Assembly: GCF_027947535.2 (NCBI RefSeq)
Contig: NZ_JAAGKO020000036.1
Coordinates: forward strand, 1-64,000
Source of the DNA: Streptantibioticus silvisoli
GTDB lineage: Bacteria; Actinomycetota; Actinomycetes; Streptomycetales; Streptomycetaceae
Direction of reading: 5' to 3'
DNA: 64,000 bases
Shown piece after piece: positions 20,346 to 64,000 of the stretch (positions are counted from its first letter, which is position 1; every line of letters begins with the position of its first letter). Below the pieces are notes generated by a model. It was not told the origin of the DNA and did not search any database. It saw only the letters and a program-made list of their open reading frames with translations. A program made the translations under genes and the position numbers.

Positions 20346-21080
20346 TCAGGTGCGTGTGGCGTGCACCATGTACGTGACGTTTCGCGCCTCGGTCAGCGGT
20401 GCCTGCGTCACGGCCGTCGTGAAACCGGCATCGTGCAGGATGCCGTTGACCTTCTCCAACTGGCCGTCCAGGTCCGCCACTTCCAGGACCGCCTGGTGGA
20501 TGCGCGGCCACTGGTCCGCGGCGATGCCGAGCAGGACGTCCGCCTCCGCGCCCTCGACGTCGACCTTGAGCAGGTCGACGTCCCGGTCCTCGGGCAGGAA
20601 CGACGCCAGCCGCTCCACGGTCGCGTTCACCTCCTGGACCTTGTACATCTGGTCGACGGTCTTCTGCGGCACGGCCTCGGCCATCTGGACCATGGGCAGC
20701 ACCTTGGTCTCCGGGTACCGGGTCGAGTTGCCCGGCAGCATCGGATAGAAGGCGAACATGACGTTGCCCTCCGTCTCGCTGCCCAGCGCGACCTCGTTCA
20801 GCGTGATGCCCTCGAGCCGGTGCAGGGCGACGTTCTGACGGAAGACCGCGGCCGACTGGGGCATCGGCTCGAAGGAGATGATCTCCGCGTCCGGGTATTT
20901 GCTCTTGATATAGAGGACGAACATCCCGATGTTTCCGCCGACATCCACAATGAAGGGGCGATCGGGGAGATCGACGTCGTAACACCCCTCATTGAATATC
21001 TCATCGTGCATGAAGCGGGTTTCCATGATGCTCTGGGCATAGACGTGCAAGCCGCCACCCAGATCGAGGAGTTTGGACAT
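20346..21080 (-). CDS. FkbM-family SAM-dependent methyltransferase
   Basis: A 244-residue soluble methyltransferase. Residues 43-54 read FIVDVGGNIGMF, the glycine-rich SAM-binding motif I; Glu71 in SFEPMP is the expected ribose-binding acid; residues 172-179 read KVDVEGAE, the conserved FkbM-family motif. The ATG at 21080 is chosen because it opens MSKLLDLGGG directly before the family fold and is preceded by a GAAAGAG ribosome site. An upstream extension in the same frame is low-complexity and Arg-rich and is rejected. FkbM relatives methylate hydroxyl or carboxylate oxygens on polyketides and other natural products, so this is probably a tailoring O-methyltransferase for this cluster; which oxygen it modifies cannot be read from sequence. 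It is the only non-PKS gene in the window, convergent with gene A and divergent from gene B. Its own promoter is at 21162-21190. Confidence 0.92.
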   Translation of the reverse strand: MSKLLDLGGGLHVYAQSIMETRFMHDEIFNEGCYDVDLPDRPFIVDVGGNIGMFVLYIKSKYPDAEIISFEPMPQSAAVFRQNVALHRLEGITLNEVALGSETEGNVMFAFYPMLPGNSTRYPETKVLPMVQMAEAVPQKTVDQMYKVQEVNATVERLASFLPEDRDVDLLKVDVEGAEADVLLGIAADQWPRIHQAVLEVADLDGQLEKVNGILHDAGFTTAVTQAPLTEARNVTYMVHATRT

Positions 21081-21161
21081 AGGCACTCTTTCGCTGTTCT
21101 CCGGCGTACCCCTGGGGGAGCTGCAAAGAGACGGGCCAGCACCGGAATGTGGGGGGTTCGA

Positions 21162-21190
21162 ATCGTAGCCGCTCACCTGTGGCTTTCCAA
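21162..21190 (-). promoter_or_regulatory. Predicted sigma-70 (HrdB-like) promoter of the methyltransferase gene
   Basis: On the - strand, TTGGAA (21190-21185) and TACGAT (21167-21162) are separated by exactly 17 bases, a good match to the TTGNNN / TANNNT pattern of actinomycete housekeeping promoters. The start of transcription would be near 21155, giving a leader of about 75 bases. Predicted by pattern only. Confidence 0.55.
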
Positions 21191-21310
21191 CCTTTGTGAC
21201 GGATGCCCCTTGTTGTACGGCCCTCGGGGGGCGCGCGCCGCGCCGCCGGGCCGACGACGGGCCGGGAATCCACCGCGTGACCGGCCCGGAAGGCGCCGAC
21301 GGGCATCCCA

Positions 21311-21326
21311 TAGGGGTGGTTAGGGG
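21311..21326 (+). promoter_or_regulatory. Direct TAGGGG boxes with 10-base period upstream of the operon promoter
   Basis: TAGGGG occurs at 21311-21316 and 21321-21326, so the two boxes fall on the same face of the helix and end two bases before the predicted -35. This position suits an activator binding site. No regulator gene is in the window to pair with it. Confidence 0.4.
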
Positions 21327-33400: not shown

Positions 33401-36400
33401 GGCGCGACGAGGGCGGCACGCAGCGGTGGCTGACCGCGCTGGCGCACGGTTACGTGCACGGGTTGCCGGTGGACTGGCGTGCGGTGTTGGAGCCGTTCGG
33501 TGGCCGCCGGGTCGACCTGCCCACGTACGCCTTCCAGCACCAGCACTTCTGGCCGGAGACGTCGCAGCTCCCGACGAACGTGGCGTCGGCCGGACTGACG
33601 GCCGTGGGGCACCCGTTGATCGGTGCGGCGGTCCAACCGGCCGACAGCGAGGGCACGTTGTGGACGGGACGGCTGTCGCTGGCCACGCACTCCTGGCTCG
33701 CCGACCACGCGGTGATGGACACCGTCCTGCTGCCCGGCACCGCGTTCGTGGAACTGGCGTTGCAGGCGGGCGACCAGCTCGGCTGCCCCGTGGTCGACGA
33801 GCTGACCTTCGAGGTGCCGCTGACGTTGCCGGAGCGGGCCGGGGTCCAGCTCCAGGTCGTCGCCGGCGCGCCGGACGGTGACGGACGGCGGACGGTCACC
33901 GTCCACTCGCGGCCGGAGCGGTCCGGCGCCGACCAGCGGTGGACCCGGCACGCCACCGGCACGCTGGCACCCGGCACCGCCGCTCCCGGCTTCGACCTGG
34001 TCGCCTGGCCGCCGCCGGGCGCCGAACCGCTCCCGGTCGACGGCTTCTACGAGGCGCTGGCCGACGGCGGTTACGGCTACGGCCCGGCCTTCCGGGGGCT
34101 GACGGCGGCGTGGCGCTGCGGCGAGGAGGTCTTCGCCGAGGTCGCCCTCCCCGACCACATACGCAAGGACGCCGCGTCGTTCGGCCTGCACCCGGCCCTG
34201 CTGGACGCGGCCCTGCACGCGGCCGGACTCGGCGGACTGCTCGGCGCGGACGGCCCGGCGAAGCTGCCGTTCGCCTGGAGCGGGGTGTCACTGCACGCCA
34301 CGGGCTCACCGGCGCTGCGGGTGCGCCTGACGCCGCTGGGCACGGACACCCTCGCGGTCGCGGTCGCCGACGCGACCGGCGCCCCGGTCGCCCGGGCCGA
34401 GTCGCTCACCCTGCGCCCGGTCTCCGCCGCCCAACTGCGCGCCAACCGCGGTGGCGGCGCGTCGGACGCGCTGTTCCAGGTGGAGTGGACCCCGGTGACC
34501 GCGGACGAGCCGTCGGCGGCCTTCCGCCTGACGGTGGTCGGGCAGAGCGAACCCGTCGAACTCATCGAGTCCGGCAGGCAGGTCTCCTGGTACCAGGACA
34601 TGGCCGCGCTGATGGCCGCCGTGGACGCCGGACTGTCCGTACCCGAACACGTCGTGTGGTCCCCGGCGGCGGCCGGCACCGTGCGGGAGGCCACCGACGA
34701 GGCGCTGGCGACCGCGCAGGAGTGGCTGCGCGACGAGCGCCTCGCCGACGCCCGCCTGGTCGTGGTGAGCCACGGCGCGGTGGCGGTGAACGCCGGGGAG
34801 GACGTGCCCGACCTGCCGGCGGCGGCGGCCCGGGGCCTGCTGCGTTCCGCCCAGTCGGAGAACCCCGACCGGATCGTGCTCGTCGACCTCGACGCCCGTC
34901 CCGGCTCTTGGCAGGCGCTGCCCGCGGCACTGACCGCGGACGAGCCGCAGGTGGCCGTACGCGCCGGACAGCTGCTGGCGCCCCGGCTGGTCAGGGCCGG
35001 CGAGAGCGCGCTGATCCCGCCCGCGGCGGGCGAGCCGTGGCGGCTGGACACCACCGGCCACGGCGCGCTGGACGGGCTGGCGCTGCTGCCCGCGCCCGCC
35101 GCGTCCGCGCCGCTCGCCCCCGGCGAGGTCCGCGTCGCGGTACGCGCCGCGGGGGTCAACTTCCGTGACGTGGCGATCGCCCTGGGCATCGTGCCGGACC
35201 AGGCCGTGATGGGCACCGAGGGCGCCGGAGTGGTGCTCGAAGTGGGCTCCGCGGTCACGGACCTCGCCGTCGGCGACCGCGTCTTCGGACTCCTCGCGGG
35301 CTGCTTCGCACCGGTGACCGTGGCCGAGCGCCGCGCCCTGGTGCGGATGCGGCCCGGCTGGACGTTCGCCGAGGCCGCCTCGCTGGCGACGGTCTTCCTG
35401 ACCGCCTACTACGGGGTGGTCGACCTCGCCGGCGCCAAGGCCGGGGAAACGCTGCTGGTGCACTCGGCGGCCGGCGGCGTCGGCATGGCCGCCGTACAGC
35501 TCGGCCGCCACCTCGGGCTGGAGGTCTTCGGCACCGCGAGCGCCGGCAAGGAGGACGTGCTGCGCTCGTGGGGGCTGGACGACGACCACATCGCGTCGTC
35601 GAGGACGCTGGACTTCGCACCGCACTTCCGGGTCACCACCGACGGGCGGGGCGTCGACATCGTCCTGAACTCGCTGGCCGGGGAGTTCGTCGACGCCTCC
35701 ATCGAACTGCTGGCGCCCGGTGGCCGATTCATCGAGATGGGCAAGACCGACATCCGCGACGCCGCCGAGCTGGACGAGGAGTACCCCGGCCTGTCCTACC
35801 GGGCGTTCGACCTCGCCGAGGCCGGCGCGGAACGCCTCTTCGCGATGCTGGCCGAGATCCTGGACCTGCTCGACCGGGGCGCGCTGCGGATGCTGCCCAT
35901 CACCGCGTGGGACCTGCGGCAGGCGGTGGACGCCTTCCGGTTCATCAGCCAGGCCCGGCACATCGGCAAGAACGTGCTGACCCTGCCCGCCGCCCTGGAC
36001 CCGCGGGGCACGGTGCTGATCACCGGCGGCACCGGCGTACTGGCCGGGGCGCTGGCCCGGCACCTGGTGCACGAGCACGGCGTACGCCACCTGCTGCTCG
36101 CCGGCCGGCAGGGCCCCGCCGCCCCCGGCGCCCGGGAGCTGGCCGCCGAACTGGCGGAAGCCGGGGCACGGGTCGAACTGGCCGCGTGCGACGTGGCGGA
36201 CCGGGAGGCGCTGGCCGCGCTGCTGGCCGCCGTACCGGCCGAACACCCGCTGACCGGTGTGGTGCACGCGGCCGGCACGCTGGACGACGGGGTCTTCGAC
36301 ACGATGAGCCCGGAGCGGCTGGACGCGGTCCTGCGGCCGAAGGCCGACGCGGCGCTCCACCTGCACGAGCTGACCCGTGACGCGGACCTGGCGATGTTCG

Positions 36401-37378: not shown

Positions 37379-46866
<9,488 letters not shown>

Positions 46867-46867
<1 letters not shown>

Positions 46868-49800
46868 TGGCCGACGAGGCAAAGCTCCGGGACTATCTCG
46901 GCAGGGTGATCGCCGAGCTGCACCAGACCCGGCAGCGCCTGCGCGACGCCGAGTCGGGCGAGTCGGAGTCCATCGCCATCGTGTCGATGAGCTGCCACCT
47001 GCCCGGCGGCGTGCACAGCCCCGACGACCTGTGGCGGCTGCTGCTCGACGGGGGCGACGCCATCACCTCGTTCCCGGCCGACCGCGGCTGGAGCGCCGAC
47101 CTGCCCAGCGGCGCGGAAGAGGGCCGCGACTCCGCGGCCCGCGGCGGGTTCCTGCACGACGCCGCCTGGTTCGACCCCGGCTTCTTCGGGATCAACCCCC
47201 GCGAGGCACTGGCCATGGACCCGCAGCAGCGGCTCGCGCTGGAGACCGCCTGGGAGGCCGTCGAACGGGCCGGCATCCACCCCAAGTCCCTGCGCGGCAG
47301 CCGCACCGGCACCTTCATCGGCGCCAACGGCCAGGGCTACGACGCCGCCATGCAGGCGGCCGGCGCCAGCTCCTCCGAGGGCTACCTGCTGACCGGCGGC
47401 GCCACCTCCGTCGTCTCCGGCCGGATCGCCTACACCCTCGGCCTGGAGGGCCCCGCCGTCACGGTCGACTCCGCCTGCTCCTCCTCCCTGACCGCCCTGC
47501 ACCTGGCCGGCCAGGCACTGCGCGACGGCGACTGCACCATGGCCCTGGTCGGCGGCGTCACCGTGATGCCGCACGCCATCGGCTTCTACGAGTTCGACCG
47601 GCAGCGCGGCCTGTCCTCCGACGGCCGGTGCAAGGCGTTCTCCGCCGCGGCCGACGGCATGGGCATGGCCGAGGGCGCCGCGATGCTCCTGGTCACGACG
47701 TACACGAACGCGCTGCGCAACGGCTACCCGGTCCTGGCGGTGCTGCGCGGCAGCGCGGTCAACCAGGACGGCGCCTCCAACGGGCTCACCGCGCCCAACG
47801 GCCCCTCCCAGGAACGCGTGATCCGCCAGGCGCTCGCCAACGCGCGACTGTCGCCCGAGCAGGTCGACGCCGTCGAGGCGCACGGCACCGGCACCGCGCT
47901 CGGCGACCCGATCGAGGCCCAGGCCCTGATCGCGACCTACGGCCAGGACCGCCCCGCCGACCGGCCGCTGTGGCTCGGATCGCTGAAGTCCAACATCGGC
48001 CACACCCAGGCCGCGGCCGGCGCCGCCGGGGTGATCAAGGCCGTCCTCGCGCTGCGCCACGCGACGCTGCCGCGCACCCTGCACGCCGACGAGCCCACCC
48101 CGCACGTCGACTGGTCGGCCGGTTCGGTGGAACTGCTCACCGAGTCCCGGCCGTGGCCGCGGTCCGAGGAACCGCGCCGCATCGGGGTGTCCTCGTTCGG
48201 CATCAGCGGAACGAACGCGCACCTCATCCTCGAACAGGCCCCGGTCACCGAGCCGGCCGCGCCCGACGGCCCGCGTGCCGCGCCGCCGGTGATCCCCCTG
48301 CCGGTCTCCGGCCGGACCGCCGACGCGCTGCGTGAGCACGCCGGCCGGCTCGCCGCCCTCGTGCGCGCCGAACCGGGCCTGGACGTGCTCGACCTCGGCT
48401 GGTCGCTCGCGACGGGCCGTGCCTCCTTCGACCACCGCGCCGTGGTGCTCGCCGCGGACCGCGAGGCGTTCCTGACCGGCCTGGACGCGCTGGCCGACGG
48501 GGGCGCGACCGCGCCCGGTGTGGTGCGCGGCGTCGCGGCCCAGGAGCTGACCGCGTTCCTGTTCACCGGCCAGGGCGCCCAGCGCGTCGGCATGGGCCAG
48601 GAGCTGTACGCGGCGTTCCCGGTGTTCGCGCGGGCCCTGGACGAGGTGTGCGCGCACTTGGACACCGCGCTGGGCGGCTCGCTGCGCGAGGTGATGTTCG
48701 GCGACGAGGAGTCGCTGAACCGGACCGACGGCACCCAGGCCGCGCTGTTCGCCCTGGAGGTGGCGCTCTTCCGGCTGCTGGAGTCGTGGGGGGTGCGCCC
48801 CGACTTCCTGCTGGGCCACTCGATCGGCGAGATCGCCGCCGCGCACGTCGCCGGGGTGTTCTCGATCGAGGACGCCTGCACGCTGGTGGCCGCCCGCGGC
48901 CGGCTGATGCGGGCGCTGCCCCCGGGCGGCGCCATGCTGGCGGTGGAGATCACCGAGGCCGAGGCCGTCGAGGCGCTCACCGCCTACGAGGCCTCGGTCG
49001 GCGTCGCGGCGGTCAACGGACCCACCTCGGTGGTGGTCTCCGGCGACGAGGAGGCCGTCGCCGGCCTGGAGGCGACCTGGCGGCAGGCCGGCCGCAAGGT
49101 CAAGCGCCTCACCGTCTCGCACGCCTTCCACTCCCCGCGCATGGACGCGATGCTCGACGAGTTCGCCGCCGTCGTCGCCGGCCTGACCCCGCACGCCCCC
49201 AGCCTGCCGATCATCTCCGACCTCACCGGGCAGCCGGCCGACCCCGACCTGATCCGCACCCCCGGCTACTGGGTGCGGCACGTGCGCCAGGCGGTCCGTT
49301 TCGCCGACGGGGTGCGGACGCTGTACGCGGCGGGGGTGCGCACCTTCCTCGAACTCGGCCCCGACGGCGTGCTCACCGCCATGGCCCAGCACTGCCTGAC
49401 CGAGGACGACGACGCCTGCCTCACCGCCACGCTGCGCGCCGGACGCGACGAGAGCGGCCAACTGCTGCGCGCTCTCGCCACGCTGCACACCGCCGGCGCC
49501 GACCCCGACTGGCGGGCCGTCTACGCCGGCTGGGGCGGCACCCGCGTCGACCTGCCCACCTACCCGTTCCAGCGCCAGCGCTACTGGCCGGCGATCAGCG
49601 GCGCCACCAACATCGCCGCGGCCGGCCTGGGCAGCGCCGACCACCCGCTGCTCGGCGCCGCGGTGTCGCTGGCCGACGGCGACGGCGCCCTGCTGACCGG
49701 GCGGCTGTCCACCGTCACGCACCCGTGGCTGTCCGAACACGTCGTCCTGGGCAGCACGCTGGTGCCCGGCACCGCCCTGGTGGAACTGGCCCTGCGCGCC

Positions 49801-52800
49801 GGTGACCAGGTCGGCTGCCGCCGGCTGGAGGAACTGACGCTGCGCACCCCGCTCGTGCTGCCCGAGCACGGCGGCGTCCAGCTGCAACTGCGCGTCGGCC
49901 CCCCGCAACCGGACGGCCGCCGCACGGTCACCGTGCACTCGCGGCCGGACGGTGCGGGCGACGAATGGACCTGGCACGCCGAAGCCACCGTCGCCCAGGG
50001 CGAGCCCGCCGCCCCCGAGAGCCTCACCGCCTGGCCCCCGGCGGACGCCGAACCGCTCGGCGTCGACGGCTGGTACGAGGGCGCGGCCGGCGCCGGACTG
50101 CGCTACGGGCCCACCTTCCAGGGGCTGCGCGCGGTGTGGCGGTCCGGTGACGCGGTGTACGCCGAGGTGGAACTGCCCGAACCCGGCCGCGCCGAGGCCG
50201 CCGGGTTCGGACTGCACCCCGCCCTGCTGGACGCCGCGCTGCACGCCGTCGGCGTCAGCGGACTGCTGTCCGGCTCCGACGGCATCCGACTGCCGTTCGC
50301 CTGGAGCGGCGTCAGCCTCCACGCCATCGGCGCCTCCGCGCTGCGGGTACGGCTGACCCCGGCCGGCGCCGACGCGGTGTCGCTGACCGTCGCCGACGGT
50401 ACGGGCGAACCCGTCGCGTCCGTCGACCGGTTGGTCCTGCGGCCGACGACCTCCGCCCAACTGCCCTCCGGCGTCCCGCGCGACACCCTTTTCCAGGTGC
50501 AGTGGGTGCCCGCCGCACCGCCCGGCACGGCCGCCGACGCCAGCGACGCCGCCGACGGTGCCGACACCGACCGGGCCGCCGCCGACAGCGCCGTCCTCCT
50601 GCCGGTCGGGGCCACCGCGGACCCCTCGGCGGAGGCCGTCCGCACCGCCCTGCGCGAGACCCTGGCGGCGCTGCACGACTGGCTCGCCGCCGACCGGCCC
50701 GCCGACGCCCGCCTGGTCGTCCGCACCCGCGGCGCCGTGCCCGCGGACGGCACCCCCGTCGCACCGGTGGCCGCCGCCGTCTGGGGCCTGGTGCGCGCCG
50801 CCCAGTCCGAACACCCCGGCCGCTTCGTCCTGCTCGACGCGTTCGACGCCGAGGAGGGCGCCGCCGCCGACGAACCCGGACAGCTCGCCGCCGTCCTGGC
50901 CACCGGCGAACCGCAGGTGGCGCTGCGCGGCGGCCGGACGCTGGTGCCGCGGCTGGCACCGGCCGCCACCCGGCCGGCCGCCGAACACCGCGCACCCGAC
51001 CCGGCGGGCACCGTGCTGATCACCGGCGGCACCGGCGTGCTCGGCGCGATCGTCGCCCGGCACCTCGTCGTCCGGCACGGCGTGCGGCACCTGACGCTGC
51101 TCAGCAGGCGCGGCGCCGACGCGCCGGGCGCCGCCGAACTCGTCGCGGAACTCGCCGCCCACGGCGCCACGGCCGACGTGGTCGCGTGCGACGCCGCCGA
51201 CCGCGAAGCCCTCGCCGCCGTCCTGGCCGCCCTGTCGGCGGACCGCCCGCTGACCGGGGTCGTCCACGCGGCGGGCGTCGTCGCCGACGCGACGATCGAG
51301 TCCCTGACGCCCGAGGGGATCGACACCGTCCTGCGGCCCAAGGCCGACGCGGCGGTCAACCTGCACGAGCTGACCGCCCACCTCGACCTGGGCCTGTTCG
51401 TGCTGTTCTCCTCCGCGTCCGCCACCTTCGGCACACCGGGACAGGGCAACTACGCCGCCGCCAACGCCTTCCTGGACGGCCTCGCCCAGCACCGCACCGC
51501 CCGGGGGCTGGCCTCGGTCTCCGTCGGCTGGGGCCTGTGGGCCGAGGCCAGCGGCATCACCGGCCACCTGGGCGAGACCGACCGGGCCCGCATCACCCGG
51601 GCCGGAGACGCGCTGTCGACCGAGGAGGGACTCGCGCTCCTCGACGCCGCCCTGGCGGCCGGCGCCCCGCACCTCGTCGCGCTCCGCCTCGACCTGCGGG
51701 CCGCCCGCGCGCAAGCCGGCACCGGCCACCCGCTGCTGCGCGACCCCTCCCGCCCCCGGGCCCGCCGCACGGCCGGAGCGGCCGGGCACCCGGCGACCGC
51801 CCGGTCCCACCTGGCGGCGCGGCTGTCGGCGCTGGAGGAGGCCGACCAGCTGCGGGAGCTGACCGACCTGGTCCGCGCCGCCGCCGCCACCGTCCTGGGC
51901 CACGCCTCGGTCGAACTCATCGAGCCGCGAAGGTCGTTCGCCGAACTCGGCTTCGACTCGCTGACCGCGGTGGAACTGCGCAACCACCTCGCCGACCGCA
52001 CCGGGCTGCGCCTGCCGGCCACCCTGGTCTTCGACCACCCCTCGTCGGCCGTCCTGGCGGCGCACCTGCGGCCCCGGCTGCTCGGCATCGCCACCGCCGG
52101 CCCGGTGGCTCCCCAGGGCACCGCGGACGCGGACGAGCCGATCGCCATCGTGGGCATGAGCTGCCGCTTCCCCGGCGGGGCCGACAGCCCCGAAGCGCTG
52201 TGGCGGCTGGTCGAGACCGGCACCGACGCCATCTCACCGTTCCCCGACAACCGCGGCTGGGCCAGCGAGGCGATCTTCGACCCCGAACCGGGCACCAGCG
52301 GCAAGTCGTACGTGCGCACCGGCGGCTTCGTCCACGACGCCGACACCTTCGACCCGGAGCCGTTCGGGATCTCCCCGCGCGAGGCGCTGGCGATGGACCC
52401 CCAGCAGCGGCTGATGCTGGAGGGCTCCTGGGAGGCGTTCGAACGCGCCGGCATCGACCCGTTGTCGCTGCGCGGCAGCCGCACCGGTGTCTTCGCCGGC
52501 CTGATGTACCACGACTACGCGGGCACCATGAGCTCGCTGCCCGAAGGCGTCGAGGCGTTCCTCACCACCGGCACCTCCGGCAGCGTGCTGGCCGGCCGGG
52601 TGTCCTACACCTTCGGACTCGAAGGCCCGGCCATGACCGTGGACACCGCCTGCTCCTCCTCACTGGTGGCGCTGCACCTGGCCGCACAGGCCCTGCGCGG
52701 CGGCGAATGCGACCTGGCGCTGGCCGGCGGGGTCACCGTGCTGTCCACCCCGGCCGTCTTCGTCGACTTCAGCCAGCAGCGCGGCCTGGCCCCCGACGGG

Positions 52801-55800
52801 CGGGCGAAGTCGTTCGCCGCGGCGGCCGACGGCACGAGCTGGTCGGAGGGCATCGGCGTGCTGCTGGTCGAGCGGCTGTCGGACGCGCGGCGCAACGGCC
52901 ACCAGGTGCTCGCGGTCGTGCGCGGCACGGCGGTGAACCAGGACGGCGCCTCGAACGGGCTGACCGCGCCGAACGGCCCCTCGCAGGAACGGGTGATCCG
53001 TCAGGCGCTGGCCAACGCCCGGCTCACCACGTCGGACGTGGACGTGGTCGAGGCGCACGCCACCGGCACCAAGCTCGGCGACCCCATCGAGGCGCAGGCG
53101 GTCCTGGCCACCTACGGCCAGGACCGGCCCGCCGACCGGCCGCTGTGGCTCGGGTCGCTGAAGTCCAACCTCGGACACGCCCAGGCCGCCGCGGGCGCCG
53201 GCGGCGTCATCAAGATGGTCATGGCGATGCGCCACGGGGTGCTGCCGAAGACCCTGCACGTCGACGCCCCCAACCCCGAGGTCGACTGGTCGGCCGGCGC
53301 GGTGGAACTGCTCACCGAGTCCCGGCCGTGGCCGCAGACCGGCCGCCCGCGCCGGGCCGCCGTCTCCTCGTTCGGCGTGAGCGGCACCAACGCCCACGTC
53401 ATCCTCGAAGAGCCGGCCGACCGGCCCGAACCCGGCGCCGCACCGGCACTGCGGGAGGACGGCGGCGCGACGCTGCCCTTCGTGCTGTCGGCCAAGAACG
53501 ACGAGGCGCTGCGCGAGCAGGCCGCCCGGCTGCTCGCCGCGGTCGGGACCGAGCGGCCGCAGCCGGCGGACGTGGCCAGGTCGCTGGTGGAGACCCGCGC
53601 CTCGCTGGAGCACCGCGCCGTGGTGCTGGCCGCGACGGCGGACGAACTGACCGCCGCACTGGCCGCGATCGCCGCCGGCGGTGCCGCCCCCGGCGCGGTG
53701 ACCCGTACCGGGGACGCCGGTCGCGGCGGAGTGGTCTTCGTCTTCCCCGGCCAGGGCTCGCAGTGGGTCGGCATGGCCGTCGAACTGCTGGACGCCTCCG
53801 AGGTGTTCCGCCGGCGGATCGAGGAGTGCGACCTGGCGCTGCGGGAGTTCGTCGACTGGTCGCTGCTGGAGGTGCTGCGCGCCGTGGGCGACGAGGGCGC
53901 CAAGTGGCTGGACCAGGTCGACGTCCTCCAGCCGGTGCTGTGGGCGGTGATGGTCTCGCTGGCGCAGATGTGGCGCGCGGCCGGCGTCGTGCCGTCCGCG
54001 GTGGTGGGCAACTCGCAGGGCGAGATCGCGGCGGCCGTGGTGTCCGGGGCGCTGACCCTGCGCGACGGCGCCCGGGTGGTGGCGCTGCGCAGCCGGCTGG
54101 CCATCGAACTGCTCGCCGGGCGCGGCGGCATGGTCGCCGTGGCGCTGCCGCGCGCGAAGGCCGCGGAACTGCTGGAGCCGTGGCAGGGCCGCGTGTCGGT
54201 CGGCGCGGTCAACAGCCCGTTCTCCACGGTGGTGTCCGGCCAGGCCGCCGCGCTGGAGGAGCTGCTGGCGGTCTGCGAGGAGCGCGGGATCCGGGCGAAG
54301 GCCATCCCGGCCGCGTTCGCCTCGCACTCGCCCGAGGCCGACGTCATGGAGGAACGGCTGCTGGAACTGCTGCGCCCGGTGGCGCCGCGCGAGCCGAAGG
54401 TGCCGTTCTACTCCACGGTGCTGGGCCGCCGGCTCGACACCGCCTGCCTCGACACCGAGTACTGGTTCGACAACATGCGCCGCGAGGTGCTGTTCGAGGA
54501 GACCACCCGCGTCCTGCTGGCCGAGGGGCGGTCGCTGTTCATCGAGATGAGCCCGCACCCGGTGATGGCCGCCGCGCTGTCGGAGACCGTGGAGGACGCC
54601 GGGGCGCGCGCCGCGGTCCTCGGCACGCTGCGGCGCGGCGAGGGCGGCGCGCAGCGCTGGACGAGGGCGCTGGCCGAGGCGTACGTCCACGGTGTGGACG
54701 TCGACTGGTCGGCGGCGCTGCGGGGCCGCGGCGGGCGGCGGATCGGGCTGCCCACCTACGCCTTCCAGCGCAAGCGCTACTGGCCGGAGTCCGGTCCCGC
54801 GATCGCCGCCGTCAGCGCGGCCGGCGTCATCGCCGCCGACCACCCGCTGCTCGTGGTGGCCGTCCCGGTGGCCGGCGGCGACGGCGTGCTCTACACCGGA
54901 CGGCTGTCGGTGGCCACCCACCCGTGGCTGGCCGAGCACGCGGTGCTGGGCACCGTGCTGCTGCCCGGCACCGCGTTCGTCGACCTGGCGCTGCGCGCGG
55001 GGGAGCAGGCCGGGTGCCCCCGGCTGGAGGAGCTGATCCTCCAGGCGCCGCTCACCCTGCCCGAGACCGGCGGGGTGCGCTTCCAGGTCGCCGTCGGCGT
55101 CCCCGGCGACGACGCGGGCCGCACCTTCACCGTCCACTCCCAGCCGGAGTCGGCGGACCCGTCCGCGCCGTGGACCACGCACGCCACCGCAACCCTGCTG
55201 CCCGCCGGCCCCGCCGAGCCGTTCGACTTCGCCCAGTGGCCGCCCGCCGGGGCCGAGGCGGTCACCGTCGAGGGCTGGTACGACGGCGCCGCCGCGGCCG
55301 GCTACGGCTACGGCGCCACCTTCCGCGGGCTGCGCTCGGTGTGGCGCCGCGGTGACGAGGTGTTCGCCGAGGTGGCGCTCCCGGAGCAGGCGCACACCGG
55401 CGCCGAGCGGTTCGGCGTCCACCCCGCCCTGCTGGACGCCGCGCTGCACGCGCTGGGCCCCTCCGGACTGCTGCCGGACACCGGCCAGATCCGCCTGCCG
55501 TTCTCCTGGAGCGGCGTCAGCCTGTACGCCACCGGCGCGCTCGGGCTGCGGGTACGGCTCGTGGCGGACGGCACCGACAGCGTCCGGCTCCAGGCCGCCG
55601 ACGCCACCGGCCGGCCGGTGCTCGCCGCCGAGTCGCTGGCGACCAGGACCGTGACGCCCGGCGAGCTGCGCACCGCCGGCGACGCCACCCGCGAATGCCT
55701 CTTCCAGCTCGACTGGACGGCGCCCGGGTCGCTGCCCGCCGCCGACGTCCCCGCGGTGTGGGCCGTGGTCGGCGACGACACCGCGGACGTCGCCGAGGGC

Positions 55801-57597
55801 CTGCTCCCCCACGTCCCCCGGCTGGAGTGGCACCCCGACCTCGGCACGCTCGCCGAGGCCCTCGACGCCGGCCGCGACATCCCGGACGTCGTGGTCTGGT
55901 CCGGCTCCCCGGGCCCGGACGACGGGCCCCTCGCGGCCGGGGTCCGCGACGAGACCACCGCGACGCTGGAGCGGTTGCGGGCCTTCCTCGGCGACGACCG
56001 GCTGGCCGGCGCGACGCTGCTCTTCCTGACCCGCGGCGCCGTCGCCACGTCCGCCACCGAGGACGTACCCGATGCCGCCGCCGCCGCGGCACGCGGCCTG
56101 GTGCTGTCCGCGCAGAGCGAGAACCCCGGCCGCGTCGTGCTGGCGGACCTGGACGCCGACGCGGCCTCGCTGGCCCGGCTGCCGCAGCTGGCGACGGCCG
56201 GCGAACCCCAGCTCGCCCTGCGGGCCGGGACGGTGCTGGTGCCCCGGCTGGTCCGTACGGCACCCGACGACACCGCGCCGCCCGCCGTCCGGGCCGACGC
56301 GCGGGTGCTGATCACCGGCGGCACCGGAGTCCTCGGCGCGATCGTGGCCCGCCACCTGGCCACTGAATACGCCGTCCGCGACCTGCTGCTGCTCAGCCGC
56401 AGCGGCGACCAGGCGCCCGGAGCGGCCGAACTGGTCGCCGAACTCGCCGAGTTGGGCGCCCGCGCGGAGATCGTCGGCTGCGACGCGGCCGACCGCGAAC
56501 AACTCGCCGCGGTGCTCGCCGACCGCCCGGTCACCGGAGTCGTGCACGCCGCCGGCGTCCTCGACGACGGCGTGATCGGCACGCTCACCGCCGGCCACGT
56601 CGAGCGCGTCCTGCGCCCCAAGGTGGACGCCGCGGTGAACCTCGACGAACTCACCGCCGACAGCGACCTCGACATGTTCGTGCTGTTCTCCTCGGCGGCG
56701 GCCACCATGGGCACCGCGGGACAGGGCAACTACGCGGCGGCCAACGCCTTCCTCGACGCCCTGGCCCACCGCCGGCGGCTGCGCGGCCGGCCCGCGGTGT
56801 CCGTCGGCTGGGGGATGTGGGCCGAGGCCAGCGGCATGACCCGGCACCTGGACGCCCGCGACCTGGCCAAGGCGGCGGGCGGCGGCTCCGCGCTCACCGC
56901 GCAGGAGGGCATGGCCCTGTTCGACGCCGCGCACGCGGCGGCCACCGCCCCCGCGCACCTGGTGGCGGCCCGCTTCGACCTCGCCGCCCTGCGCGCGAGC
57001 GCCGGCTCCGTCCCCGTACCGGCGGTACTGCGCACCCTGGTGCCGCCCCCCGTGCGGCGGGCGGCCGACGGCGGCGCCGACAACGCGCCGGCCCTGCACC
57101 GCAAGCTCGCCGGACTGTCGGAGGCGGAACGGCGCCGCACCCTGGTCGAACTCGTGCGCGGCGAGGTGGCCTCGGTGCTCGGGCACGCCACGGCCGACGG
57201 GATCGACCCCGAACGCGGCTTCAGCGAGCTGGGGTTCAGCTCGCTGACCGCGATCGAGATCCGCAACCGGCTGGCCGTGGCCACCGGGCTGCGGCTTCCC
57301 ACCACGCTGATCTTCGACTACCCGACGGTGACCAGGCTCGCCAACCACCTCTACACCCACCTGGTGGTCGACGGCCCCGCCGACGCGCTCCCGCTGCTGG
57401 AGCGGATCACCGAGTTCGAGGCGGGCCTGGCCGACACCGACGACGAGGAACTGCGCGACCGGGTGGTGCAGCGCCTACAGGCCCTGCTGGCCAAGTACGA
57501 CCCGGACGCCGATCCGGACGCCGGCGCGGTCAACCTGGACTCCGCCACCGACGAGCAGATGTTCCTGCTGATCGACAACGAGCTGGGGGCGCCGTGA
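46867..57597 (+). CDS. Type I modular PKS, gene D: two dehydrating modules
   Basis: Predicted 3576-residue PKS. The ATG at 46867 overlaps the stop of gene C by one base and has GGGAG about 8 bases upstream; the frame is open further left inside gene C, but only from this ATG does it give the docking helix [13 protein letters not shown]. Order: docking; KS-AT-DH-KR-ACP (D1); KS-AT-DH-KR-ACP (D2); docking region ending [16 protein letters not shown]. Both modules have DH and KR but no ER, so they should install two successive double bonds. The first KS has DSACSSS rather than DTACSSS. The second AT is atypical (GNSQGE, FASH). The final ACP lacks the usual Asp. Gene E starts 48 bases on. Confidence 0.97.
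46966..52080 (+). other. Module D1: KS-AT(malonyl)-DH-KR-ACP
   Basis: Adds acetate as CH=CH. KS 46966-48245 is divergent: [25 protein letters not shown] (Cys codon 47476-47478) and [10 protein letters not shown] in place of the usual [12 protein letters not shown] about 48550-49400: GHSIGE (Ser codon 48820-48822) and HAFH: malonyl. DH 49642-50450: [10 protein letters not shown] (His codon 49738-49740), YGPTF and LLDAALH, all intact. KR about 51007-51640 has VAD at the LDD position and no Trp marker; catalytic Tyr codon 51451-51453. Probably B-type, which with DH usually gives a trans alkene. ACP Ser codon 51958-51960. Confidence 0.92.
52132..57594 (+). other. Module D2: KS-AT(unusual)-DH-KR(B-type)-ACP-docking
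   Basis: KS 52132-53410 (Cys codon 52651-52653), His box HATGT. AT about 53730-54620: the active-site box is GNSQGE (Asn codon 54010-54012, Ser 54013-54015) and the specificity box is FASH (54316-54327) after PAA instead of VDY; the NGPS segment reads NSPF. The serine and the final His are kept, so it should be active, but its extender is not readable as plain malonyl or methylmalonyl. DH 54841-55660: [10 protein letters not shown] intact (His 54937-54939), YGATF instead of YGPTF. KR about 56305-56930 with LDD, Tyr 56731-56733. ACP box GFSSLT, Ser codon 57241-57243, with Ser replacing the usual Asp. Docking region to the end. Confidence 0.9.
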
Positions 57598-57633: not shown

Positions 57634-57648
57634 CAGGAGGCCCCCGTG
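57634..57648 (+). promoter_or_regulatory. Ribosome binding site and GTG start of gene E
   Basis: AGGAGG followed by five C residues and GTG at 57646. This near-perfect site fixes the start of gene E and rules out later in-frame starts. Confidence 0.85.
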
Positions 57649-60600
57649 GCGAATGAAGACAAGCTCCGGGAGTACCTCAAGCGGGCGACCACCGAGCTGA
57701 CCCAGGTCCGCCAGCGGCTGCGCGCGGTGGAGGCCGCCGACCACGAGCCCATCGCGATCGTCGGCATGGCCTGCCGCTACCCCGGCGGTGTCGACAGCCC
57801 CGAGGCCCTGTGGCAGCTGGTGTCCGACGGCACCGACGCGATCGCCGGCTTCCCCGGCGACCGCGGCTGGGACATGCGGTTCTTCGACGCGGCCGACGCC
57901 GACGGTGCCTCCTTCACCCGCGAGGGCGGATTCCTCTACGACGTCGCGGACTTCGACCCGTCGCTGTTCGGCATCTCCCCGCGCGAGGCCCTCGCGATGG
58001 ACCCCCAGCAGCGGCTGATGCTGGAGACCTCCTGGGAGGCGCTGGAGCGCGCCGGCATCGACCCGCTGTCGCTGCGCGGCAGCCGCACCGGGGTGTTCGC
58101 CGGCGTGATGTACAACGAGTACGCCTCCCGGGTGCTCGACATCCCCGAGGGCGTGGCGAACTACCTCGGCACCGGAAGCGCCCCCAGCGTCGTGACCGGC
58201 CGGATCTCCTACACCCTCGGCCTGGAGGGCCCCGCCGTCACCATCGACACCGCGTGCTCCTCGTCGCTGGTGGCGGTGCACCTGGCCGGCCAGGCGCTGC
58301 GCAGCGGCGAGTGCAGCCTCGCGCTGGCCGGCGGTGTCGCGGTGATGATCACCCCGAACACCTTCGTCGACTTCGGCATGTCCGGCGGCCTGTCGCCCGC
58401 CGGCCGCTGCAAGGCGTTCGGCGCGGACGCCGACGGCAGCGGCTGGGGCGAGGGCGTCGGCATGCTGCTGCTGGAGCGGCTGTCGGACGCCCGGCGCAAC
58501 GGGCACCCGGTGCTCGCGGTGGTCCGCGGTTCCGCCGTCAACCAGGACGGCGCCTCCAGCGGGCTGACCGCGCCGAACGGCCCCTCCCAGCAGCGGGTGA
58601 TCCGGCAGGCGCTGGCCAGCGCCCGGCTGTCCGCGGCGGACGTCGACGTGGTCGAGGCGCACGGCACCGGAACCGTACTGGGCGACCCGATCGAGGCCCA
58701 GGCACTGCTGGCGACGTACGGCCGGGAACGCCCGGCGGACCGGCCGCTGTGGCTGGGATCGCTGAAGTCCAACATCGGCCACACCCAGGCCGCGGCCGGG
58801 GTCGGCGGCGTCATCAAGATGGTCATGGCGATGCGGCACGGCGTGCTGCCCAAGACCCTGCACGCCGACGAGCCGTCCCCGCACGTGGACTGGTCGGCCG
58901 GCGAGGTCGAACTGCTGACCCGGGCCCGCCCGTGGCCGCGCACCGGCGAACCGCGCCGGGCCGGCGTCTCCTCGTTCGGCGTGAGCGGCACCAACGCCCA
59001 CCTGATCATCGAACAGCCCCCCGAGACCGCCGCGCCCGCGGACGACGAGCCCGCGCCCGGACGGTCCGCCGGCGGACCGGTCCCGTGGGTGGTGTCCGGC
59101 AAGACGGCGGGCGCGCTGCGCGGCCAGGCGGCACGACTGCTGCGCCGGGTCGAGGAACTGTCCGGCGCGGACGGCGCCGACCCGGCCGACGTGGGGCTGT
59201 CGCTGGTCGCCACCCGGGCGGCGCTGGAGCACCGCGCGGTCGTCCTGGGCACCGACACCGAGGAGCTCGCCCGCGGCCTGGCGGCACTGGCCGACGGCCA
59301 GGAGGGCCCCGGTGTGGTGTGCCGCACCGGCGACATGGGCCGCGGCGAGGCGGTGTTCGTCTTCCCCGGCCAGGGCTCGCAGTGGGTGGGCATGGCGGTG
59401 GGACTGCTGGAGACCTCACCGGTCTTCCGCGAAAGCGTCGAGGAGTGCGAGCGCGCGCTGAACGCGTTCGTGGACTGGTCGCTGGTGGAGGTGCTGCGGG
59501 CCGAGGGCGACGAGGGCGCCGCCTGGCTGGACCGGGTCGACGTCGTCCAGCCGGTCCTGTGGGCCGTGATGGTGTCGCTGGCGCAGCTGTGGCGCTCGGT
59601 CGGGGTGGCCCCGGCCGCCGTGGTGGGCCATTCGCAGGGCGAGATCGCCGCGGCCGTGGTCGCGGGCGCGCTCAGCGTCGACGACGGCGCGCGCGTGGTG
59701 GCGCTGCGCAGCCGCCTGATCGGCGAGGTGCTCTCCGGCCCCGGCGGCATGGTGTCGGTCGCCCTGCCGCGCGCCGACGTGGTGCAACTGCTGGGCCCGT
59801 GGGGCGAGGACATCTCGGTCGCCGCGGTCAACGGGCGCACCTCCACGGTGGTCTCCGGCGACGCGGGCGCGCTCGGCGAACTGCTCGCCGCGTGCGCGGA
59901 ACGGCAGATCCGGGCCCGCCGCATCCCGGTGGACTACGCCTCGCACTCCGCCCAGGTCGAACGCATCCACGACCGGCTGCTGCGGGACCTGGCCCCGGTC
60001 GCCCCGCGGGCGGCGACGGTGCCGTTCTACTCCGCGGTCACCGGCGGACGCGCCGACACGGCGTCCCTCGACGCGGCGTACTGGTTCGACAACCTGCGCC
60101 GCGAGGTGCTGTTCGAGGAGACCACACGGGTCCTGCTGGGGGAGGGGCGCTCACTGTTCATCGAGATGAGCGCCCACCCGGTGCTCACCGGCGGACTGTC
60201 GGAGACCGTCGAGGACGCCGGGGCGCGCGCCGCAGTGCTCGGCACCCTGCGGCGCGGCGAGGGCGGCCGGGAACGCTGGCTCAAGGCCCTGGCCGAGGCG
60301 TACGTGCACGGCGTCAACGTCAACTGGCAGGCGCTGTACGAGGGTTCGGGCGCCCGGCGGATCGACCTGCCCACCTACGCGTTCCAGCGCAGACGCTACT
60401 GGCTCGAAACGCTGTCCCTCGGGCTCGCGCCGCTGGACCCGAACGCCTCAGCGCCCTCCTCGTGGCGCTACGAGATCTTCTGGAAGCCCTCACCGGTCGC
60501 GCCGGCCACCCTGGCCGGCGACTGGCTGCTGCCCATCGCGGCCGGCACCGCAGACGACCCGTCGGTGGCCTCCTGCCGTGCCGCCCTGCAAGCCGCCGGC

Positions 60601-63600
60601 GCCACCGTCATCGCCTGCGAACTGCCCGCGGCCGGCAGCGACCGCCACACGCTCGCCACCCGGCTGCGCGAGCTGACCGGCGACCGGCAACCGGCCGGCG
60701 TGCTGTCACTGCTCGCCCTCAACGAGGCACCCCACCCCGGTCAGCAGGACGTCCCGGCCGGACTGGCCGACACCCTGACCCTGCTCCAGGCCCTGCACGA
60801 CGCGCGCATCGACGCACCGCTGTGGTGCGCCACCCGCGGAGCCGTCTCGACCGGCCCCGGCGACCGGCTCACCGACCCCGTCCAGGCACTGGTGTGGGGC
60901 TTCGGGCGGATCGCCGCCAACGAGTACCCCCGCTGGGGCGGCCTGATCGACCTGGCCGACGCGGCCGGCGACCGTGCCGCCTCCTGGCTGCCCGGCGTGC
61001 TGGCCGGCCGGGCGGGCGAGGACCAGGTCGCGCTGCGCGCCGACGGCGTCCTCGTGCCGCGCCTGACCCGGGCCCTGGTCACCGGCACCTCTGCGCGCCG
61101 CGCGTGGAAGCCCTCCGGCACCGTGCTGGTCACCGGCGCCACCGGCGGCATCGGCACCCACGTGGCCCGCTGGCTCGCCCGCGAGGGCGCCGAGCACCTG
61201 CTGCTCATCAGCCGCCGCGGCGCCGCCGCCCCCGGCGCCGGCGAACTCGTCGCCGAACTCACCGCTCTCGGCACCCGGGTGACCCTCGCGGCGGCGGACC
61301 CGGCCGACCGCGACGTCCTCGCCGGCCTGCTCGCCGACCTCCCCGCCGAAGCCCCGCTCACCGCCGTCTTCCACGCCGCCGGCGTCGTCGACTCCAGCAT
61401 CCTCGACTCCCTCACCGTCGAGCGGATGGGCAACGCCCTGCGCGCGAAGCGCCGCATCGCGATCAACCTGCACGAACTGACCCGCGACCACGACCTGACC
61501 GCGTTCGTGCTCTTCTCCTCCATGGCCGGCATCTTCGGCGCGGCCGGCGAGGGCAACTACGGCCCCGGCAACGCCTACCTGGACGCCCTCGCCCAGTACC
61601 GCAGGGCCGCGGGGCTGCCCGCCACCTCCATCGCCTGGGGCTCGTGGGACGGCGCCGGCATGGCCGAGGGCGACATCGGCGACGCCATGGCCCGGCACGG
61701 CATCCCGCGGATGGCACCGGAACTCGCGATCGCCGGACTCCAGCAGGCCCTCGACCACGACGACACCGCTGTCGTCGTCGCCGACATCCGCTGGGAGACG
61801 TTCTCCTACTTCTTCGGCGCCACCAACCCCACCCACCTCATCGACGACGTGCCCGACCTGCGGCAGCAGGCACCGAAAAGCACGGACACCCCCGCCCAGG
61901 AGGAGTCCGCGGCCGACGTCCCGCCGCTGGTGCGCACGCTGCGCGAGGCCACCGAGGCCGAACGCAACCGGGCCCTGCTGGGCCTGGTACGCGACCAGGT
62001 CCGGCTCGTACTCGGCTACGACTCCGTCGACGAGGTCGAACCCGGCCAGCCGTTCCAGAACCTCGGCCTGTCCTCCGCCGGCTCCGTCGAACTGCGCAAC
62101 CGGCTCACCCTGACCACCGGCCTTCGGGTGCCCGCGACCGTCGTGTTCGACTACCCGAACTGCACCGAGCTGTCCCGCTACCTCGGCACGCGGCTCCTGG
62201 AGCCGGCCGCGCGGACCGCGGCACCCCAGCAGCGCGCCGCCGTCGCCGCGGACACCGACGAGACCATCGCCATCGTCGGCATGAGCTGCCGCTACCCGGG
62301 CGGAGTACGCTCCCCCGAGGACCTGTGGGACCTGGTGCGCAACGGTACCGACGCGATGACCGGCCTGCCGCACGACCGCGGCTGGGACCTCGACGCGCTC
62401 TACCACCCCGACCCCGACCACCCCGGCACCAGCTACGCGCGCGACGGCGGCTTCGTGCCCGACGCCACGCAGTTCGACGCCGCGCTGTTCGGCATCTCGC
62501 CGCGCGAGGCCCTGGCCATGGACCCCCAGCAGCGGCTGCTGCTGGAGACGTCCTGGGAGGTCTTCGAACGCGCCGGGATGGACCCGCGGTCACTGCGCGG
62601 CAGCCAGACCGCGGTCTTCGCCGGCACCGGCGGCCAGGACTACATCAGCCTGCTGTCCGCCTCCGGCGAGTCCACCGACGGCTACCTGGCCACCGGCGGC
62701 TCGCCCAGCGTGGTCTCCGGCCGGGTGGCCTACGTCTTCGGCCTGGAAGGCCCGGCCGTCACCGTCGACACCGCCTGCTCCTCGTCGCTGGTCGCACTGC
62801 ACCTCGCGGTGCAGGCGCTGCGCCGCGGCGAGTGCGACCTCGCGCTGGCCGGCGGCGTGTCCGTGCTGTCCAGCCCCAGCATCTTCATCGAGTTCAGCAG
62901 CCAGCGCGGCATGTCCTCCGACGGCCGCTGCAAGTCCTTCGCCGCCGCCGCCGACGGCACCGGCTGGGGCGAGGGCGTCGGCATGCTGCTGGTCGAGCGG
63001 CTGTCGGACGCCCGGCGCAACGGCCACCAGGTGCTGGCGACGGTCCGCGGCTCCGCCATCAACTCCGACGGCACCTCCAACGGCCTGACCGCGCCCAACG
63101 GCCTGGCCCAGCAACGGGTGATCCGCCAGGCACTCGCCGGCGCCGGACTCGCCCCCGGTGACGTGGACGCCGTGGAGGCGCACGGCACCGGCACCACGCT
63201 CGGCGACCCCATCGAGGCGCAGGCACTGCTGGCCACCTACGGCCAGGACCGCCCCGGTGACCGGCCGCTGTGGCTGGGATCGGTGAAGTCCAACATCGGC
63301 CACACCCAGGCCGCGGCAGGCGTCGCGGGGCTGATCAAGATGGTCATGGCCATCCGGCACGGCGAACTGCCCATGACGCTGCACGTGGACGAGCCGTCCC
63401 CGCACGTGGACTGGACGGCCGGCGCCGTCGAACTGCTCACCGAGACCCGCCCCTGGCCGCGCACCGACGGACCGCGCAGGGCGGGCATCTCCTCGTTCGG
63501 GATCAGCGGCACCAACGCGCACACCATCATCGAGCAGGCCCCCGAGCAGGAACCGCTCCCGGCGCCGGCCGGTGAACTCCCGGCCGGACAACAGGAGTTC

Positions 63601-64000
63601 ACCCCCGGCCTGGTGCCGTGGCTGGTCTCCGCCGACACCGCGGAGGTCCTCGCCGGACAGGGCGAACGGCTCGCGGCGCTGGTCGCCGCCCACCCCGAAC
63701 TGCGCCCGCAGGACATCGGACTCTCCCTGGTCGCCGCCCGCGCCGACCTCGACCACCGCGCCGTCGTACTCGCCTCGGACCGCGAGGAGTTCCTCGCCGG
63801 CCTGGCGGCACTGGCACAGGACCGTCCCGCGCCCGGCGTCGTACGCGGCACCGCGGGACCGGGCCTGACCGCCTTCCTGTTCACCGGTCAGGGTGCGCAA
63901 CATGCCGGTATGGGTGCCGGGTTGTACGACGCGTTCCCGGTGTTCGCGGAGGCGTTGGACGCGGTGTGTGCGGGGTTGGACGGGGAGTTGGACCGTCCGT
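57646..64000 (+). CDS. Type I modular PKS, gene E (3' partial)
   Basis: Starts at GTG 57646 with AGGAGG 5 bases upstream and opens with the docking helix VANEDKLREYLKR, matching genes B-D. The frame is open to the right edge, giving at least 2118 residues. Order: docking; KS-AT-KR-ACP (E1); KS and the first ~40 residues of an AT (E2). E1 uses methylmalonyl. Its KR fits neither standard class and its ACP box is atypical. The gene lies 48 bases after gene D, without a terminator between them, so it is probably co-transcribed and next in the assembly line. Confidence 0.97.
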   Translation, partial: MANEDKLREYLKRATTELTQVRQRLRAVEAADHEPIAIVGMACRYPGGVDSPEALWQLVSDGTDAIAGFPGDRGWDMRFFDAADADGASFTREGGFLYDVADFDPSLFGISPREALAMDPQQRLMLETSWEALERAGIDPLSLRGSRTGVFAGVMYNEYASRVLDIPEGVANYLGTGSAPSVVTGRISYTLGLEGPAVTIDTACSSSLVAVHLAGQALRSGECSLALAGGVAVMITPNTFVDFGMSGGLSPAGRCKAFGADADGSGWGEGVGMLLLERLSDARRNGHPVLAVVRGSAVNQDGASSGLTAPNGPSQQRVIRQALASARLSAADVDVVEAHGTGTVLGDPIEAQALLATYGRERPADRPLWLGSLKSNIGHTQAAAGVGGVIKMVMAMRHGVLPKTLHADEPSPHVDWSAGEVELLTRARPWPRTGEPRRAGVSSFGVSGTNAHLIIEQPPETAAPADDEPAPGRSAGGPVPWVVSGKTAGALRGQAARLLRRVEELSGADGADPADVGLSLVATRAALEHRAVVLGTDTEELARGLAALADGQEGPGVVCRTGDMGRGEAVFVFPGQGSQWVGMAVGLLETSPVFRESVEECERALNAFVDWSLVEVLRAEGDEGAAWLDRVDVVQPVLWAVMVSLAQLWRSVGVAPAAVVGHSQGEIAAAVVAGALSVDDGARVVALRSRLIGEVLSGPGGMVSVALPRADVVQLLGPWGEDISVAAVNGRTSTVVSGDAGALGELLAACAERQIRARRIPVDYASHSAQVERIHDRLLRDLAPVAPRAATVPFYSAVTGGRADTASLDAAYWFDNLRREVLFEETTRVLLGEGRSLFIEMSAHPVLTGGLSETVEDAGARAAVLGTLRRGEGGRERWLKALAEAYVHGVNVNWQALYEGSGARRIDLPTYAFQRRRYWLETLSLGLAPLDPNASAPSSWRYEIFWKPSPVAPATLAGDWLLPIAAGTADDPSVASCRAALQAAGATVIACELPAAGSDRHTLATRLRELTGDRQPAGVLSLLALNEAPHPGQQDVPAGLADTLTLLQALHDARIDAPLWCATRGAVSTGPGDRLTDPVQALVWGFGRIAANEYPRWGGLIDLADAAGDRAASWLPGVLAGRAGEDQVALRADGVLVPRLTRALVTGTSARRAWKPSGTVLVTGATGGIGTHVARWLAREGAEHLLLISRRGAAAPGAGELVAELTALGTRVTLAAADPADRDVLAGLLADLPAEAPLTAVFHAAGVVDSSILDSLTVERMGNALRAKRRIAINLHELTRDHDLTAFVLFSSMAGIFGAAGEGNYGPGNAYLDALAQYRRAAGLPATSIAWGSWDGAGMAEGDIGDAMARHGIPRMAPELAIAGLQQALDHDDTAVVVADIRWETFSYFFGATNPTHLIDDVPDLRQQAPKSTDTPAQEESAADVPPLVRTLREATEAERNRALLGLVRDQVRLVLGYDSVDEVEPGQPFQNLGLSSAGSVELRNRLTLTTGLRVPATVVFDYPNCTELSRYLGTRLLEPAARTAAPQQRAAVAADTDETIAIVGMSCRYPGGVRSPEDLWDLVRNGTDAMTGLPHDRGWDLDALYHPDPDHPGTSYARDGGFVPDATQFDAALFGISPREALAMDPQQRLLLETSWEVFERAGMDPRSLRGSQTAVFAGTGGQDYISLLSASGESTDGYLATGGSPSVVSGRVAYVFGLEGPAVTVDTACSSSLVALHLAVQALRRGECDLALAGGVSVLSSPSIFIEFSSQRGMSSDGRCKSFAAAADGTGWGEGVGMLLVERLSDARRNGHQVLATVRGSAINSDGTSNGLTAPNGLAQQRVIRQALAGAGLAPGDVDAVEAHGTGTTLGDPIEAQALLATYGQDRPGDRPLWLGSVKSNIGHTQAAAGVAGLIKMVMAIRHGELPMTLHVDEPSPHVDWTAGAVELLTETRPWPRTDGPRRAGISSFGISGTNAHTIIEQAPEQEPLPAPAGELPAGQQEFTPGLVPWLVSADTAEVLAGQGERLAALVAAHPELRPQDIGLSLVAARADLDHRAVVLASDREEFLAGLAALAQDRPAPGVVRGTAGPGLTAFLFTGQGAQHAGMGAGLYDAFPVFAEALDAVCAGLDGELDRP
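57745..62200 (+). other. Module E1: KS-AT(methylmalonyl)-KR-ACP(atypical)
   Basis: KS 57745-59010 (Cys codon 58255-58257). AT about 59350-60240 with GHSQGE (Ser codon 59632-59634) and VDYASH (near 59935): methylmalonyl. No DH. KR about 61117-61750: NADPH loop VTGATGGIG; VDS instead of LDD; Phe instead of Trp eight residues before the catalytic Tyr (codon 61558-61560); Glu at -3; YGPGN instead of YAAAN. Catalytic Ser, Tyr and Asn are all present, so it is probably active, with uncertain stereochemistry. ACP box LGLSSAGSVELRN, Ser codon 62074-62076: Asp, Leu and Thr of the normal DSLT are all replaced. Confidence 0.9.
62257..64000 (+). other. Module E2 (partial): KS and start of AT
   Basis: KS 62257-63535 (Cys codon 62776-62778, DTACSSS; HGTGT and SNIGH intact). 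The AT begins near 63868 with FLFTGQGAQ, the form shared by every malonyl AT here (methylmalonyl ATs start [10 protein letters not shown]), so malonyl is likely, though the active-site and HAFH boxes lie beyond the edge. From about 63880 codon use switches to TTG-rich and the DNA matches the AT of B2. Confidence 0.88.
63933..64000 (+). repeat. 68-base exact repeat, copy 2 (AT of E2, cut by the window edge)
   Basis: Identical to 27894-27961 in the AT of module B2. The copy reaches the last base of the window. Confidence 0.88.

Follow-up and report, generated by a model that had tools for sequence, protein, structure and literature searches.

The acyltransferase (AT) of module D2, encoded in a giant polyketide synthase (PKS) cluster of Streptantibioticus silvisoli, carries neither the malonyl nor the methylmalonyl signature and probably loads ethylmalonyl-CoA, which would yield an ethyl-bearing alkene in a diene. 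We propose that D2 is an active cis-acyltransferase that evolved within the cluster from a methylmalonyl AT by enlargement of the acyl pocket. The cluster's crotonyl-CoA carboxylase/reductase (CCR) would convert crotonyl-CoA to ethylmalonyl-CoA, and a 3-hydroxybutyryl-CoA dehydrogenase copy may aid this supply in the present genome. The D2 KS would then condense the ethylmalonyl unit, with KR and DH acting and no ER, so that the ethyl group would be borne by the alpha carbon of a trisubstituted double bond within the diene built by D1 and D2.

Motifs and pocket residues of the D2 acyltransferase

The window, that is, the whole 64,000-nt stretch analysed, corresponds to bases 1–64000 of contig C61 (88.6 kb) in a draft genome of 8.7 Mb, across which 97 AT domain matches were found; 15 ATs lie on C61. 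PKS gene D occupies an open frame on the plus strand (44515–57597, coding start near 46788) and encodes modules D1 (malonyl, DH-KR) and D2. Within it, the D2 AT domain (53734–54699, plus strand, 322 aa, conserved in orthologues) is of the type I PKS family: PF00698 covers the whole domain (283.7 bits, positions 1–318), with both catalytic residues, Ser and His, in place. A motif scan located the rest of the module on the same strand (52642–57597), with KS (DTACSSS, 52642), DH (54937, an 11-residue motif), KR (56317–56731, motifs GGTGVLG and YAAAN), ACP (57226) and the stop codon; an ER motif was absent from the module. The presence of DH and KR motifs and the lack of an ER motif support the alkene position given to the D2 unit in the initial annotation. 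In the ten-residue motif of the D2 ACP (57223–57264), Ser replaces the Asp preceding the phosphopantetheine serine, a form kept in S. triculaminicus and S. lilacinus; the E1 ACP (contig 62056; window 62056–62097) has the same replacement (NLGLSSAGSV).

Translation and alignment of the 15 contig ATs bore out the unusual motifs first annotated in D2, all on the plus strand and all found in D2 alone among the 15. These are GNSQGE at the active site (54007–54024, catalytic Ser at 54013–54015), in which Asn stands where EryAT6 has H643; VNSPF (54208–54222), replacing VNGPS; and the small-subunit motif PAAFASH (54307–54327), equivalent to EryAT6 V742A, D743A and Y744F with the catalytic His kept. 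The 11 other ATs with an active site in the window carry, as the same annotation had it, either GHSIGE with HAFH or GHSQGE with YASH (YGSH in one); the window ends within a twelfth, at 63874. NSP is common to the tylosin ethylmalonyl AT (8jpu) and also to some YASH ATs. To these motifs the alignment added further fixed pocket changes on the plus strand: VDVLQP versus VDVVQP (53917–53934), within the large-subunit motif QVDVLQP (53914–53934; xVDVVQP in methylmalonyl ATs), Ala at the place of EryAT6 L673 (54100–54102), Ala at that of V751 (54337–54339), unique within the set to D2 orthologues, and Met at that of L797 (54475–54477), common to tylosin AT5 and a CAGH AT. D2 thus lacks both the methylmalonyl signature (GHSQGE, VDVVQP and YASH) and the malonyl one (GHS(I/V/L)GE and HAFH); judged by sequence, its non-YASH small-subunit motif goes with a predicted enlargement of the pocket, as looked for in an ethylmalonyl AT. 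Leu in VDVxQP occurred in 8 of 14 non-YASH ATs versus none of 85 YASH ATs, and Ala at 673 was shared by all of the six other PAAFASH ATs and by none of the YASH ATs in the set. Ala673, the Leu in VDVLQP and PAAFASH look like coupled pocket changes.

We placed D2 on EryAT6 numbering by anchoring on the catalytic Ser and His and on the residue numbers given in PMC8044089; EryAT3 (2qo3) stood in for EryAT6 in the alignment, which has a one-residue insertion between positions 673 and 747. Of 318 residues, 18 were invariant across three D2 orthologues and found in none of 15 methylmalonyl ATs from the two clusters. Six of the 18 (H643N, L673A, V742A, Y744F, V751A and L797M) fall on the ten EryAT6 positions that shift extender use, an overlap with a hypergeometric P of 2.5e-6 that serves as a guide, the sites not being independent. 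Orthologue controls put none of their residues on the ten positions (E1, 0/3; C2, 0/24; E3, 0/0). Position alone gives no direction, because H643F, I648G and L797E made EryAT6 stricter for methyl (PMC8044089); the D2 substitutions at 673, 742 and 751 are all to Ala, towards space. The ethyl product of EryAT6 rose from 2.9 to 4.3% with V742A (1.5-fold) and to 4.5% with H643S (1.6-fold), and most single mutants still preferred methyl (PMC8044089). Asn643, Phe744 and Met797 of D2 are substitutions outside those made in EryAT6.

Conservation, spread and descent of the motifs

A scan covering one genome per bacterial species found D2 orthologues in S. triculaminicus JCM 4242 (L003; 74–75% amino-acid identity), whose locus is colinear with the window across genes A to E, and in S. 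lilacinus (L017; 72% over the part free of N runs). Both read GNSQGE, VNSPL and PAAFASHS, and a fourth D2 copy lies in genome G218 (L110). The D2 motifs are more than chance, because they are conserved in orthologues at 74–75% identity. With its changes conserved in S. triculaminicus, S. lilacinus and G218, the D2 AT is not degenerate, which agrees with the earlier view that it is not simply dead.

Apart from the orthologues, loci L004–L071 carried GHSQGE with a single exception, GSSQGE in Frankia sp. AgB32 (L033); this AT also has a VASH motif and groups with the solved chain 7vt1. Searches with degenerate DNA patterns found GNSQGE(I/L/V/M)AAA in at least 4 of 396 Streptomycetaceae genomes and PAAFASH with two set residues after it in at least 7 of 386; these are lower bounds, as the patterns sample part of the possible codons, and the GNSQGE pattern missed G218. 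Three other GNSQGE ATs, from three Streptomycetaceae genomes (L102, L103 and L104), have an ordinary VDYASH and form their own clade, unrelated to D2. GNSQGE has therefore arisen more than once and is no marker alone, and we rejected it as a specificity marker; it was not found in the literature. The PAAFASH ATs L105, L106, L107, L109 and L111 belong to other clusters. In five genomes with other PAAFASH ATs there was no CCR within about 30 kb and no FkbH nearby, and PAAFASH was accordingly rejected as a strict marker of CCR-containing clusters; the genes flanking these loci gave no product name. The L111 AT also carries VDVLQP and NSPG, the PAAFASH loci of G028 and G129 have a small two-module PKS, and two adjacent CCR genes in G325 (C1:145106–147648) lie far from that genome's PAAFASH AT.

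In the tree, the D2 orthologues group together (100/100) with this genome's E1 AT as sister (98/91), and the D2 and E1 clade is nested inside the cluster's methylmalonyl ATs, from which D2 descends. This is the grouping that the initial annotation had named as evidence against a non-standard extender. As a test of specificity the placement is not discriminating, because the tylosin ethylmalonyl AT (AT5) also falls among methylmalonyl ATs; the tree shows the in-cluster origin of D2, not its specificity. The methylmalonyl ATs B1, B3 and E3 (window 23239–24180 and 32506–33444; contig 68542–69480) are 94–97% alike in this genome, and B1 and B3 are 94% alike in S. triculaminicus, which suggests gene conversion or homogenisation within each genome, with D2 staying distinct.

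Extender supply and the choice between substrates

Two CCRs of this genome exceeded the family cut-off. The one on C105 is read as adjoining primary ethylmalonyl-CoA operon genes. The other (C7:6398–7585) lies upstream, on the small contig that also holds the beginning of PKS gene Y1, and is joined to the cluster solely by colinearity with S. triculaminicus. This cluster CCR groups with the crotonyl enzymes (869 bits to 3hzz versus 491 to octenoyl CCR) and is adjoined by a tandem 3-hydroxybutyryl-CoA dehydrogenase copy. In S. triculaminicus, the CCR sits between a P450 and a type II thioesterase gene just after gene E. The G218 cluster CCR (C3:1078656–1079849), 26 kb from D2, has one in-frame TGA stop, reflecting either a pseudogene or a sequencing error, and that genome also has an intact primary CCR at 1411235. 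A second CCR of S. lilacinus, on contig C53 with a PKS AT about 7 kb away, is probably the cluster CCR. A cluster-linked crotonyl CCR, the usual though not obligatory companion of an ethylmalonyl AT, is thus found, in this genome by contig colinearity. FkbH was absent from the cluster contigs searched (C7, C84, C114 and C61 with the window), and the FkbH genes of this genome lie on C37, C102, C1 and C77. Of the two kinds of supply gene that the initial annotation proposed to look for, the CCR was therefore found in the cluster and the methoxymalonyl-ACP genes were not found on its contigs.

Ethylmalonyl-CoA is favoured because crotonyl-type CCRs occur in the cluster here and in two or three relatives. 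Moreover, D2 is the only AT clearly departing from the malonyl and methylmalonyl signatures among those listed for S. triculaminicus, where frame breaks or incomplete capture removed two or three ATs from view and the final AT reads HGFH; as the sole clearly non-standard AT listed, D2 is the natural consumer of the CCR product. The earlier suggestion of a branched or oxygenated unit is thereby narrowed: a non-methyl branch is probable, with ethyl favoured, and an oxygenated unit is disfavoured.

It is rather improbable that D2 still loads methylmalonyl-CoA, or a mixture of methyl and ethyl units, its pocket changes being drift or tuning of activity. D2 does nest among the methylmalonyl ATs of its own cluster, FASH and YASH are a single hydroxyl apart, and EryAT6 V742A still used mostly methyl (PMC8044089), but the changes in D2 are coordinated, conserved and placed at selectivity positions where the control modules have none, and under this reading the S. 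triculaminicus cluster CCR would be left with no clearly non-standard AT to supply. Less likely still as a substrate is an alkylmalonyl-CoA that is larger or branched (propyl, isobutyryl, butyl or longer). Ala at 673, 742, 743 and 751 would in each case make room, the L673G and V751A mutations raised the use of butyl by EryAT6 (PMC8044089), and FASH has been linked to bulky esters (PMC8365161); against this, the cluster CCRs are crotonyl-type enzymes and not octenoyl- or AntE-type ones, and among the C7 genes searched neither an acyl-CoA ligase nor a ketosynthase III that could provide a longer enoyl-CoA was seen.

Loading of methoxymalonyl-ACP or another oxygenated unit is very unlikely, because FkbH is absent from the cluster contigs. 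Some oxygenated-extender ATs derive from methylmalonyl-type ATs, and an FkbM-type methyltransferase gene lies at window 20346–21311 on the minus strand, between PKS genes A and B and opposite to them in orientation. Yet the FkbH genes of this genome are confined to the four contigs named above, and the C-terminal half of the C7 dehydrogenase resembles the copy near the C105 CCR of the ethylmalonyl-CoA operon (55%) and not those near FkbH genes (31–32%). That the D2 AT is inactive or decaying has a negligible probability: the usually invariant His preceding the nucleophile is lost, but the catalytic Ser and His remain, orthologues conserve the motifs, three other genomes conserve GNSQGE in an AT that is otherwise ordinary, and EryAT6 H643S kept 58% activity (PMC8044089).

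The assembly line and comparison with known acyltransferases

Colinearity with S. triculaminicus identifies C7, C114, C84 and C61 as pieces of one giant cluster, with C8 as the probable link from C84 to C61. PKS1 (C84) starts with a KSQ loading module (VDAGQSSS) that has a methylmalonyl-type AT. The Y genes (C7/C114) are likely internal to the same line, because they have docking ends and neither a loading nor a thioesterase domain. Gene E (plus strand, 57646–64000, running on to contig 76845) has four modules and ends in a thioesterase. From motif scans we estimate about 34–35 modules for the whole line. In S. triculaminicus, frame breaks occur in the loading AT and near E3 (G001:C8 near 960400; 829500–832500) and are possibly assembly errors. 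Counting back from the E thioesterase, on the assumption that D passes to E and that E is terminal, module order would place the D2 branch at C10 of a C10=C11–C12=C13 diene; an ethyl-branched diene is thus predicted in a giant macrolide. A second PAAFASH AT of this cluster, in Y1 (C114:19433–20371, minus strand; L073/L074), has GHSQGE, VEILQP and Ala673 and may add a second ethyl group. The S. triculaminicus AT at this place is of the ordinary methylmalonyl type, so the two organisms may make different products. Gargantulide was considered as a product; the papers found mention it only in passing. Monazomycin, considered for its module count and a cluster report (PMC11199612), was rejected, as PKS1 has KSQ loading and not an arginine-derived amino starter.

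Among known systems, the X-14952B PKS was the only result of literature searches for FASH and 7VRS/7VT1. Its module 2 AT has FASH in an otherwise methylmalonyl-type line, as does D2, and the motif goes with an ethylmalonyl-derived unit (PMC8365161), a likeness at the level of the motif. Small residues in place of YASH are typical of exotic alkylmalonyl ATs (PMC6490886). The module 5 AT of tylactone synthase (8jpu, our reading of an ethylmalonyl AT from the structure title and motif) resembles D2 as a cis-AT in the methylmalonyl radiation with NSP and Met at L797, but has TAGH instead of FASH, keeps VD, and reads GHSQGE and VDVVQP. There is a fairly small chance that D2 represents a convergent pocket type unrecognised so far (Ala673 and PAAFASH, often with Leu in VDVxQP, and here Asn preceding the nucleophile), which would select larger or branched alkyl units, or would select cleanly through replacement of the thioester-positioning His by Asn.

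Single mutations have mostly changed AT choice to a modest degree, as many residues share in determining selectivity. The engineered EryAT6 variants V742A, H643S, L673G and V751A (PMC8044089) were changed at the same positions as D2, mostly towards smaller side chains, whereas D2 is natural and combines six changes at once. D2 looks like a natural solution, a methylmalonyl AT converted in its own line by about six pocket changes. Its direct sister, the methylmalonyl AT of the adjacent module E1, is 72% identical and, unlike D2, has GHSQGE, VDVVQP, PVDYASH and Ile, Val or Leu at the pocket positions; the D2 and E1 pair offers a ready test of which residues suffice for a methyl-to-ethyl switch.
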